Source: Pseudomonas oryzihabitans (GTDB lineage Bacteria > Pseudomonadota > Gammaproteobacteria > Pseudomonadales > Pseudomonadaceae). Taken from it: DNA of 64,000 nucleotides. The DNA lies in NCBI RefSeq assembly GCF_014522265.1, contig NZ_CP017024.1:1206001-1270000 (forward strand). The letters run 5' to 3'. Positions 60,002 to 63,218 of the stretch are shown piece after piece. The notes under the pieces are model-generated. The model searched no databases and was not told the origin of the DNA. It saw nothing but the letters and a program-made list of their open reading frames with translations. Each line of letters starts with the position of its first letter. Position 1 is the first letter of the stretch. A program made the translations under genes and the position numbers.

Positions 60002-60694
60002 ATGCCCACTCGCCTGGCTCTCTCCGCCCTGCTGTTCTGCGCCTGCTGTCTCGGCCTGCCGCTGGCCCAAGCACAGACCGCCAGCCCCTCGCACGAGACT
60101 TCCGCCACCCAGCCACTCCTCTCCAGCTCCATCAACGACTTCAGCAACGAAGACTGGGATCGTGGCGTCCTGCGCCGGGTGGCCGGCGTGACCATTCCGG
60201 CGACCCCGGCCAACGTCGAGGGCTTCATCAGCGGGCGGCAGGTCCAGCTGGGCGATGGCGAGTGGCGTGCCATCACCGAGGTCCAGCGAGTCGGCGACAA
60301 CCTGGCCGTGTTCGTCGAGGGCCAGCCGCTGGATGCCGAGGCCGTGGGTTATCCCCGGCGCCTGGCGGTGGACGACGCCCCCGGTACCGGGCGCCATCTG
60401 CAGCGCCTGCCGGGGCGCTTCAACACCCCGATCAACGACTTCACCAACCAGGACTGGCTCAAGGGCATCTATCGCAAGGCCGCCGGCATTTCCATCCCGG
60501 TCACCGAGCGCAATCGCGAGGAATTCAAGCCGGGCGCCATCGTCCGTCTGGCCGACGGCCAGGACTATGCCGTCACCCACGTCAGCGAATTCGGCCGCAG
60601 CATGGGCGTGTTCCTCGACAGCCCGGTACTGCCCGGCGAGAAGTACGGCTATCCGCGCCAGCTGACCTTCGTCGCGCCACCGCCCAAGCCCTAA
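60002..60694 (+). CDS. Exported protein with two tandem repeat modules
   Basis: A 230-residue protein with a signal peptide (LSALLFCACCLGLPLAQAQ). Two ~80-residue repeats follow: the first starts SSINDFSNEDWDRGVLRR and ends AVGYPRRL, the second starts TPINDFTNQDWLKGIYRK and ends KYGYPRQL. Each has a buried-looking core (VQLGDGEWRAITEVQ; VRLADGQDYAVTHVS) ending in a surface GYP. I recall the module beside glycoside hydrolases in Pseudomonas, and one lies at 63322, so a carbohydrate-binding role is possible. ATG 60002 has AAGGA upstream. Confidence 0.7.
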   Translation: MPTRLALSALLFCACCLGLPLAQAQTASPSHETSATQPLLSSSINDFSNEDWDRGVLRRVAGVTIPATPANVEGFISGRQVQLGDGEWRAITEVQRVGDNLAVFVEGQPLDAEAVGYPRRLAVDDAPGTGRHLQRLPGRFNTPINDFTNQDWLKGIYRKAAGISIPVTERNREEFKPGAIVRLADGQDYAVTHVSEFGRSMGVFLDSPVLPGEKYGYPRQLTFVAPPPKP

Positions 60695-60696
60695 GG

Positions 60697-60847
60697 GCCT
60701 GTTCAAAGTCTCGCGAGCTAGAGCCAAACAAGGCCTAGGCGGCCCCACGAAAAGGCCTGAGGAAGCGGAGTTTATATAGTGTAAATGACCATTCCGAAGG
60801 CCTTTGCAACGCAGGTTGGCCGACGCGCAGCAGACTTTGAATCAGGC
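60697..60847. repeat. MITE-like palindromic element
   Basis: About 150 bases bounded by inverted repeats GCCTGTTCAAAGTCT (60697-60711) and AGACTTTGAATCAGGC (60832-60847). An inner pair AAAGGCCT/AGGCCTTT (60751-60758, 60798-60805) and flanking imperfect complementarity fold most of it into one long hairpin. It lies between two genes and contains no ORF. It is like the mini-elements common in Pseudomonas, which are moved by transposases of larger relatives. Confidence 0.7.
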
Positions 60848-60907
60848 TCTGACCGCGGGGACTGGCGCTGGTAGAATTCTTGCCCAGCGTCGTCACCCCG
60901 GTCCGCC

Positions 60908-62920
60908 ATGTCCAAGCTCAATCCCCGCCAGGCCGAAGCCGTGGCCTACATCAGCGGTCCCCTGCTGGTGCTGGCCGGTGCCGGCTCCGGCAAGACCAGC
61001 GTCATCACCCGCAAGATCGCCTACCTGGTGCAGCAGTGTGGCGTCCGCGCCCAGTACATCTGCGCCGTGACCTTCACCAACAAGGCGGCGCGCGAGATGA
61101 AGGCGCGGGTGGCCAGCCTGCTGAAAGCCGGCGAAGGCCGCGGCCTGACCGTCTCGACCTTCCACAACCTCGGGCTGAACATCATCCGCCGCGAGTACGT
61201 GCACCTGGGCTACAAGCCGGGCTTCTCGATCTTCGACGAGGGCGACATCAAGGCGCTGCTCACCGACATCATGCAGAAGGAATACCAGGGCGACGACGGC
61301 CTGGACGAGATCAAGAACTACATTGGCAACTGGAAGAACGACCTCATCCTGCCGGAAGAGGCCCTGGAAAAGGCGCGCACGCCCAAGGAGCAGACCGCCG
61401 CGGTGGTCTACCTGCACTACCAGCGCACCCTCAAGGCCTACAACGCGGTCGACTTCGACGACCTCATCCTGATGCCGGTCAAGTTGTTCCAGGAGCATCC
61501 CGAGGTGCTGGAGCGCTGGCGCAACCGCATCCGCTACATGCTGGTGGACGAATACCAGGACACCAACACCAGCCAGTACCTGCTGGTGAAGATGCTGGTG
61601 CAGGAGCGCGCCCAGTTCACCGTGGTGGGCGACGACGACCAGTCGATCTACGCCTGGCGCGGCGCGCGACCGGAAAACCTGATGCAGCTCAAGGACGACT
61701 TCCCCTCGCTCAAGGTGGTGATGCTGGAGCAGAACTACCGCTCCACCAGTCGCATCCTCAGGTGCGCCAACGTGCTCATCGCCAACAACCCCCACGTGTT
61801 CGAGAAGCAGCTGTGGAGCGAGATGGGCCACGGCGATCCGATCCGGGTATTGCGCTGCAAGAACGAGGATGGCGAGGCCGAACGCATCGCCCTGGAAATC
61901 CTCACGCTGCACCTCAAGACCCAGCGGCCCTACGCGGACTTCGCCATCCTCTATCGCGGCAACCACCAGGCCAAGCTGATGGAGCTCAAGCTCCAGCACC
62001 ACCAGATTCCCTACCGGCTCTCCGGCGGCACCAGCTTCTTCGCCCGCCAGGAGGTCAAGGACGTGATGTCCTACCTGCGCCTGCTGGTGAATCCGGACGA
62101 CGACAACGCCTTCCTGCGGGTCATCAACGTGCCGCGCCGGGAGATCGGCTCCACCACCCTGGAAAAGCTCGGCAACTATGCCGGCAGCCGGGATCGCTCG
62201 ATGTACGCCGCCGCCGACGAGATCGGCCTGGGCGAGCACCTGGACGCCCGCTTCACCGAGCGCCTGGGGCGCTTCAAGCGCTGGATGGACGGGGTCCGCC
62301 AGAATTGCGCGGGCGAGGATCCCATCGGCGCCCTGCGTAGCATGGTGATGGACATCGACTACGAGAACTGGATCCGCCAGAACGCCAGCTCCGACAAGGT
62401 CGCCGACTTCCGCATGGGCAACGTCTGGTTCCTCCTGGATGCCTTGAAGAACATCCTGGAAAAGGACGAGGACGGCCAGATGACCATCGAGGACGCCATC
62501 GCCAAGCTGGTCCTGCGCGACATGCTCGAACGCCAGCAGGAAGAAGAGGAAGGCGCCGACGGGGTGCAGATGATGACCCTGCACGCCTCCAAGGGCCTGG
62601 AATTCCCCTATGTGTTCATCATGGGCATGGAAGAGGAAATCCTGCCGCACCGCTCCAGCATCGAGGCCGACACCATCGAGGAGGAACGCCGCCTGGCCTA
62701 CGTGGGCATCACCCGCGCGCGCCAGACGCTGGCCTTCACCTACGCCACCCGGCGCAAGCAGTATGGCGAGCTGATCGACTGCACCCCCAGTCGCTTCCTC
62801 GACGAACTGCCACCCGAGGACCTGCAGTGGGAAGGCCTGGAAGAAGCGCCCCAGGAACAGAAGGCCGCCCGCGGCAACGACGCCCTGGCGGCGATGCGGG
62901 CGATGCTGAAGAAGGGCTGA
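60908..62920 (+). CDS. rep: Rep, ATP-dependent DNA helicase
   Basis: A 670-residue UvrD/Rep-family 3'-5' helicase that helps replication forks pass obstacles. Motifs: Walker A GAGSGKTS, motif Ia TFTNKAAREM, motif II DEYQDTN, motif III GDDDQSIYAWRGA, motif IV YRSTSRIL, motif V MTLHASKGLEF, motif VI YVGITRARQTL. Length and the VDEYQDTNTSQY run favour Rep over UvrD. Starts 60 bases after the palindromic element. Confidence 0.96.
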   Translation: MSKLNPRQAEAVAYISGPLLVLAGAGSGKTSVITRKIAYLVQQCGVRAQYICAVTFTNKAAREMKARVASLLKAGEGRGLTVSTFHNLGLNIIRREYVHLGYKPGFSIFDEGDIKALLTDIMQKEYQGDDGLDEIKNYIGNWKNDLILPEEALEKARTPKEQTAAVVYLHYQRTLKAYNAVDFDDLILMPVKLFQEHPEVLERWRNRIRYMLVDEYQDTNTSQYLLVKMLVQERAQFTVVGDDDQSIYAWRGARPENLMQLKDDFPSLKVVMLEQNYRSTSRILRCANVLIANNPHVFEKQLWSEMGHGDPIRVLRCKNEDGEAERIALEILTLHLKTQRPYADFAILYRGNHQAKLMELKLQHHQIPYRLSGGTSFFARQEVKDVMSYLRLLVNPDDDNAFLRVINVPRREIGSTTLEKLGNYAGSRDRSMYAAADEIGLGEHLDARFTERLGRFKRWMDGVRQNCAGEDPIGALRSMVMDIDYENWIRQNASSDKVADFRMGNVWFLLDALKNILEKDEDGQMTIEDAIAKLVLRDMLERQQEEEEGADGVQMMTLHASKGLEFPYVFIMGMEEEILPHRSSIEADTIEEERRLAYVGITRARQTLAFTYATRRKQYGELIDCTPSRFLDELPPEDLQWEGLEEAPQEQKAARGNDALAAMRAMLKKG

Positions 62921-62939
62921 GGATCTCTGCCGGCGCTTA

Positions 62940-63218
62940 CCCTCACCCCAACCCTCTCCCTGAGGGAGAGGGGGCATCCGAAGTCATCCCGGGATTCGCC
63001 CCACGCCGAGCAATCCCCTCTCCCCCAGGGAGAGGGTTAGGGTGAGGGCCCGCCCCACGCCAAGCTGACACCCTCACCCCAGCCCTCTCCCGGAGGGAGA
63101 GGGAGCACGCGCATGCTGCATCAAGCTTCGGCACACTCCCTCAGGCCCAGGCGCTACACCAACTGCTCCCAGCACTGGAGCAATCCCCTCTCCCTCAGGG
63201 AGAGGGTTAGGGTGAGGG
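62940..63218. repeat. Cluster of four REP-like palindromes
   Basis: Copies at 62940-62974 (+), 63015-63048 (-), 63071-63103 (+) and 63185-63218 (-), each built from CCCTCACCCCARCCCTCTCC plus palindromic CTGAGGGAGAGGG. They lie in alternating orientation with the flanking CCACGCC motif, i.e. two inverted pairs (BIME-like). A fifth copy is at 33051. They follow rep and may end its transcript or protect its 3' end. The 401 bases from 62921 to 63321 hold no gene. Confidence 0.85.

Follow-up and report, generated by a model that had tools for sequence, protein, structure and literature searches.

MITEs are usually viewed as passively decaying deletion products of a single insertion sequence (IS). 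Correia, ERIC and BOX elements are palindromic and come in size classes that arise from internal modules, and the signature of REP sequences is a set of hairpins with a GTAG-type foot together with a RAYT partner.

Several described elements of Pseudomonas share features with the one reported here. MITEPsy1 of P. syringae is likewise a short, IS5-like Pseudomonas MITE; in the consulted part of its description its transposition is shown and the duplicated target is CTAG or YTAA (PMC3189936). According to the same part of that source, it differs from our element in being 100 nt long, in its 4-nt duplication, in being credited to ISPsy2 and in an end that, by eye, is unlike that of our type A copies; its end GGAAGGTCTGAAAAAGCC nevertheless has GTCTGAAAA in common with the second of the type B ends in the genome studied here, in a comparison of the ends made by eye (PMC3189936). 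The IS427 group is the nearest counterpart of an 846-bp IS found in a relative (the G006 IS, see below), as the entries listed in the consulted sections measure 832-865 bp and have ends of 13-21 bp, and one of its members, ISPsp10, is inserted beside TAA (PMC3281130, PMC4133298). In contrast to the 3-bp duplication (TNA) seen here, these sections give duplications of 2 bp and once of 4 bp (PMC3281130, PMC4133298), and the ends alone are common to the IS427-group partner and the element. Finally, the R0, R2, R6, R178 and R200 repeats of P. fluorescens resemble the element in being MITE-like, hairpin-forming and intergenic, and R0 and R2 have IS-like ends, but their sizes and repeat lengths, as given in the consulted part of their description, set them apart from it on the basis of that description only (PMC2718517). 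One R family, e.g., R6 (177 bp), may be the same as the family described here. In the literature searched, which did not extend to ISfinder, no description of the family was recognised and none of six core strings was found printed.

The window, i.e., the whole stretch of 64,000 nucleotides of Pseudomonas oryzihabitans that was analysed (positions 1,206,001 to 1,270,000 of NZ_CP017024.1), holds one copy of the element according to a search with a family model. This copy is an imperfect palindrome of 155 bp on the forward strand (60695-60849), belongs to type A and carries optional hairpin module 1 without modules 2 and 3. An earlier, sequence-only reading had drawn the same element at 60697-60847, but the true span is two bases longer on each side. 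On its left, the stop codon of an upstream gene that has no Pfam match (60692-60694, + strand; TAA in both this genome, G000, and G008, and TGA in the G007 remnant) is at the same time the left copy of a 3-bp target duplication, the right copy of which is TGA (60850-60852). The gene rep, which codes for a UvrD/Rep-type helicase by Pfam (60908-62920, + strand), begins after a spacing of 58 bases. The left terminal inverted repeat, GGGCCTGTTCAAAGTCT (60695-60711), was compared with IS ends; the right one, AGACTTTGAATCAGGCTC (60832-60849), has one extra T relative to the family, which is common to the window copy, the G008 copy and the G007 remnant. Module 1 (CCTAGGCGGCCCCA, 14 nt, 60734-60747) is missing from the G008 orthologue. 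It is followed by an inner co-varying stem, with its 5′ arm at 60749-60758 and its 3′ arm at 60798-60807, that encloses a conserved core (60759-60797) made of GAGGAAGCGGA, the hairpin GTTTAt-ATAGT-GTAAAT and GAcCATTCCGA, where lower case marks letters at which the window copy differs from the family; base 60806 of the 3′ arm differs as well. The window copy is mildly decayed; it deviates at three positions that are at least 90% conserved in the family, two in the core and one in the stem.

Most of what had been read from the letters about this structure was borne out. The inverted ends 60702-60711 (TTCAAAGTCT) and 60832-60841 (AGACTTTGAA) are 100% complementary, and the nested inner palindrome pairs 60751-60764 with 60792-60805 at 86% complementarity, with a GTTTA/TAAAT hairpin within. 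The proposed hairpin of about 150 bases without an ORF also stands: the RNA fold of 60680-60860 reaches -79.5 kcal/mol (z = -4.7; matched by 0 of 200 shuffles), and 155 bp leave no room for an ORF of 60 aa. A module-free sister copy folds with z = -8.7 on one strand and -9.1 on the other, and a 150-nt piece of the module-bearing copy L228, cut before the 3′ arm, has z = -0.5 and is equalled by 57 of 200 shuffles. No Rfam family reaches its gathering score at the element (best 20 bits vs. 48).

The rep site was compared across 13 genomes of the genus. The element is present as orthologous copies in G000 and G008, and G007 retains a remnant of the two ends only, with TGA on each side. Five genomes that lack the element share the upstream gene (G002, G006, G009, G010, and G011) and are the empty sites that the sequence-only reading had proposed to look for; the element is also absent from G004 and G012, where the upstream gene is more diverged, and the sequence upstream of rep is a different one in G001, G003 and G005. 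The empty sites differ from exactly rejoined flanks by a few bases between the stop codon and the promoter. In the simplest reading, a single insertion, in an ancestor shared by G000, G007 and G008, targeted the TGA stop codon and duplicated it, and the left stop then became TAA in G000 and G008. Elsewhere in the family, among copies from named records with TNA on both flanks, the two triplets are identical in 33 of 40 (permutation mean 12.7), and 29 of 37 such copies in G007, G008 and G009 agree likewise (permutation mean 11.4); the same test on G000 alone gives 6 of 13 vs. 4.0 and is not significant (p 0.15). In the named records, 47 of 59 TNA cases have TYA as their right flank, and the next base is G in 47 of 59.

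In its own genome (5.05 Mb, one contig), the element has at least 41 dispersed matches that are 70-100% identical to the window copy, a lower bound since 40 of 84 candidates were scored, and two of the 41 are pieces of one copy. The earlier reading, which had asked for a count of copies in this genome and its relatives, would have been undone by a single copy with no empty-site alleles; this multiplicity and the five empty sites contradict that picture on both counts. Scoring of the best 14 candidates per genome found a match to the window element in 27 of 57 genomes, its own included. None of the 435 pairs among 30 fetched G000 copies reaches 95% identity (highest 94.3%, median 86%), which argues against a recent burst. 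A query with the sister type, type B, also gives at least 41 matches; 22 of the best 24 have type B ends by eye, and the other two are a type A copy already found and a B copy split by an insert. The core was also sought in named genomes, which gave at least 117 stretches, mainly from Pseudomonas, plus Stutzerimonas and some MAGs, and the core is also found in the Betaproteobacteria Chitinimonas, Vogesella and Pseudogulbenkiania. The G008 copy L204 equals copy L129 of P. oryzihabitans NBRC 102199 over 141 letters.

The window element has no match in 72,556 plasmid and 50,697 phage records. This absence is valid for the window element only, because a type B element of P. putida GM4FR matches 19 plasmid records (e.g., NZ_CP123227.1), 18 from Pseudomonas and one from Halomonas; the ten of these matches that were shown bear P. 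syringae-group names and one Halomonas name, and no annotated feature lies beneath them. The core is present in one viral contig. In 1.09 Mb of loci searched for half-elements standing alone or for an IS that contains the core, there were 13 unpaired half-core hits, which by inspection are module-bearing or diverged copies or chance matches. Separately, a diverged copy at L121:7785-7906 carries GAAAAAGCGGAGTGTAC/GTACATGAGTATTTTG, in which core letters are altered on each side; it hints that a broader superfamily escapes the exact pattern. Module 1 is replaced by a longer structured insert (GCGCAACGACCAACGGGAGTAACAGCC...) in L031, L032, L043, and L274, the last of which shows its 3′ part, and this insert occurs with both end types.

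The transposase domain PF13340 (DUF4096), which we take to be the mark of the IS427 group, was found in 16 of 57 genomes. The matching transposase that the earlier reading had proposed to seek exists in relatives, as ISs that combine the domain with matching ends, but not in G000, where neither PF13340, PF01609 nor a match to the G006 IS was found. The G006 IS (846 bp, DUF4096, IS5/IS427-like) has a PF13340 hit, L184, between its ends GAGCATGTTCAAAATCTTTT and GAGCCTGTTCAAAATCTTTT and TTA on both sides; its end pattern, GAGC[A/C]TGTTCAAAATCTTTT, matches type A. When 30 copies were aligned to it by blastn, the letters of the ends aligned in full (17 of 17 or 18 of 18) at 88-100% identity and, among the matches listed, the interior gave only chance-like matches of up to 24 letters (E ≥0.05). 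Among these matches nothing longer than the ends is common to the two, and derivation of the element by internal deletion of this IS is not supported. The G006 IS lacks an intact transposase, all three frames being interrupted; programmed frameshifting is usual in the IS427 group, according to the consulted part of PMC3281130, and leaves part of these interruptions unexplained. DNA resembling this IS occurs in 7 of 57 genomes, and outside G006 it is partial and 69-78% identical. Related ISs in G001, G013 and G014 have the end variants ACGATCT or ATGATCT (both ends were located for G001 and one G014 copy only), and it is at the same positions, with the same letters, that the ends of the element vary (columns 12-14). 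Other ISs with PF13340 have GGTTCTGTACGAAAAGT-like ends, which are those of type B. A single structured core thus occurs with several end types, two of which match different ISs, and further end types are present in the named genomes among the matches listed. In G005, 22 DUF4096 matches, many of equal score, look like a recent IS burst, and a first look gave 247 candidates for the element in that genome.

The element is shorter than 500 bp, has no transposase gene and bears inverted ends of 17-18 bp, its triplet is duplicated (TGA on each side of the G007 remnant), and its ends recur on an IS in a relative, the one of G006 having interrupted frames. It is thus MITE-like in kind, as first proposed on sequence grounds, with many copies, empty sites and matching IS ends in relatives. 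We are highly confident that it is a MITE moved in trans by IS5-family DUF4096 (IS427-like) transposases. Such a transposase would recognise the ends (~17 bp) and insert the element at a TNA triplet, which would be duplicated; where this triplet is a gene's stop codon, as is often the case, the gene would retain its stop, and the internal hairpin would be maintained as a structure. Since G000 is without a transposase of either family searched, mobility there looks historical and the element now looks stranded.

The interior of the family carries a conserved structure. Alignment A1 was built from 77 of the 91 type A copies that are 141 letters long. Omitted were two copies with indels, five that repeat a place already represented and seven that are identical or orthologous to others; some orthologues, e.g., L014 and L204, were retained. 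In A1, 93.3% of the paired cells are complementary vs. 83.4% after shuffling and at most 46.6% after sliding, and 34 of 47 pairs have changed on both sides vs. 18.7 in shuffles (12 of 14 in the inner-stem helix), with a shuffle control that keeps relatedness and a structure derived from the family itself. Conservation of the core in copies from named genomes reflects hit selection at the 33 letters preset by the search pattern, and the copies of G000, G007, G008 and G009 were picked by similarity to the window copy. Differences between orthologous copies were counted in situ over 19 real pairs, which remained of 20 after removal of L198/L231 (a flank-only match), and whose flanks differ by 3.7-8.4%, a measurement that covers the pairs other than those of G009. 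The two larger unpaired blocks differ at 1 of 185 and 8 of 415 sites, the two smaller ones at 4 of 92 and 6 of 74, the apical stem at 4 of 216, the inner stem at 38 of 369, the loop at 11 of 89 and the ends at 36 of 651; beside module 3, some of the inner-stem differences are artefacts of the alignment, and two of the loci are each represented by three pairs. Recognition by a transposase could account for the ends but leaves the inner stem unexplained.

The three hairpin modules (14, 16, and 16 nt) are located at internal loops, and within one genome elements of either type, A or B, carry similar modules. Their state was parsed on both sides in 35 of 39 orthologous comparisons among G000, G007, G008 and G009 and differs in 18, although the flanks of the 19 pairs above diverge so little. 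Six comparisons at five loci pass directly from none to all three modules, as does a seventh (L016/L246) by eye. Among the 112 copies parsed of 120, with orthologues counted separately and hence not independent, all three modules are present in 15 vs. 1.05 expected and none in 78 vs. 54.9; this excess of the two extreme states disfavours independent gain and loss of modules. At column 90, 21 of the 23 copies that have module 3 carry G and 83 of the 89 that lack it carry A, 8 of the 120 being unparsed. The copies at changed loci were compared with their orthologue and with the closest copies of the same state, in nine parsed pairs among the fetched copies (the tenth, L016/L246, is unparsed). 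L003 and L228 agree in all 76 letters between the modules, vs. 7 and 10 differences to the closest same-state candidates; the corresponding figures are two vs. 5 and 8 for L214/L231, three vs. 8 and 10 for L002/L295 (module 1 only) and three vs. 5 and 5 for L028/L200. The orthologue is clearly closer in the first three of these pairs and slightly closer in L028/L200. Another copy is equally close or closer than the orthologue for L025/L314, L247/L314 and L215/L232, and in one of two directions for L009/L294 and L208/L245. We infer that modules were copied in from another copy of the element and that single bases were restored; whole-core conversion may account for some loci. Ectopic recombination could swap modules and spare the bases between them if mismatch repair corrected single bases and passed over large hairpin loops.

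The right end of the element tends to lie behind genes. Among the 30 best-matching copies of G000, 21 have the right end, and 8 the left end, no more than 6 bases from the stop codon of a long open frame (the right end only in 14, the left end only in 1, both in 7 and neither in 8). The corresponding split is 15, 3, 2, and 5 for 25 copies of G008 and 12, 3, 3, and 12 for 30 copies of G007; length and GC3 were the only criteria for an open frame in these counts, and many G007 and G008 copies are orthologues. A target preference (TYA, then G) or selection could produce this placement, and either fits. At rep, the insertion adds 155 bp and the duplicated triplet downstream of the upstream gene, an interval in which no intrinsic terminator was found. 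The sole promoter-like match of the interval (1 vs. a shuffle mean of 0.1) is a candidate rep promoter, CTGACC-17-TAGAAT with TG before the second hexamer (60849-60877, + strand); it starts at the last base of the element, the rest lies downstream, and TAGAAT occupies this place in 13 of 13 genus genomes, so that the element probably leaves the predicted rep promoter in place. Any effect on rep, which the earlier reading had considered possible, would pass through read-through from the upstream gene or through the upstream half of the predicted promoter. Downstream of rep, at 62939-63210, four alternating hairpins (CCCTCACCCC-AACCCTCTCCCTGAGGGAGAGGG and the inverse) form a BIME-like cluster, and a similar hairpin begins at about 33051.

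Other explanations bear on the hairpin as a whole or on what maintains it. A chance hairpin in a GC-rich leader would agree with the one-arm DNA pattern, whose 2 matches are equalled by 18 of 100 shuffles and are not significant, but is refuted by a fold that no shuffle attains and by the number of matches in the genome. A REP or REPIN sequence moved by a RAYT (Y1) transposase would likewise be an intergenic, high-copy hairpin of Pseudomonas; IS5-like inverted ends with a 3-bp target duplication, and ends at which no GTAG-type foot was seen, make this origin highly improbable. It is a less remote, though doubtful, idea that transposition has spread a 3′-end structure useful to the host (an mRNA stabiliser, a terminator or an insulator), with selection keeping orientation and core. 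The bias of the right end toward stop codons in G000, repeated in G008 and G007 with their many orthologues, the strong co-variation, and the rarity of in-situ changes in two unpaired blocks as opposed to the inner stem and loop all point in that direction. The orientation may, however, stem from the target, copying from other elements could likewise keep the core uniform, the two shorter unpaired blocks do vary in situ, the search for an intrinsic terminator was negative, and the window copy itself departs from positions that are conserved elsewhere.

Somewhat more credible, yet still on the improbable side, is the proposal that mutation keeps the stem complementary, by template switching between arms (quasi-palindrome correction) or by gene conversion from other copies. 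Consistent with it, two inner-stem pairs are altered on both sides in L204 relative to L014/L235, and modules shift jointly at orthologous sites together with the linked base of column 90, for which plain deletion is insufficient. Arm-to-arm copying should, however, erase the mismatches of columns 57-61 with 79-83, which persist in nearly all copies, a persistence partly fixed by the search pattern in named-genome copies. Selection on the structure, or such copying between arms or copies, would maintain the stem of what we regard as a trans-mobilised MITE, and its core would serve the element or the host.

A tentative extension is that the core is an ancient structured unit, mobile irrespective of the transposase, that is found from Pseudomonas relatives to Chitinimonas, Vogesella and Pseudogulbenkiania, took the ends of several ISs, swaps modules while keeping locus-specific bases and docks onto stop codons in a preferred orientation. 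Such a unit would be kept by a function of its own, as RNA or as a single-stranded DNA hairpin, and would not be the deletion product of one IS. The family departs from the usual MITE in that one core, apparently borrowed by several transposases, is found with several kinds of IS ends, that its paired bases co-vary and its larger unpaired blocks are nearly fixed at orthologous sites, and that the hairpin modules change between orthologous copies, frequently several at once. It also sets a structured segment right behind the stop codons of many genes. The family is thus a natural system of many copies in many genomes in which to ask whether the interior of a MITE serves a function and how short palindromic sequences come to be rewritten.
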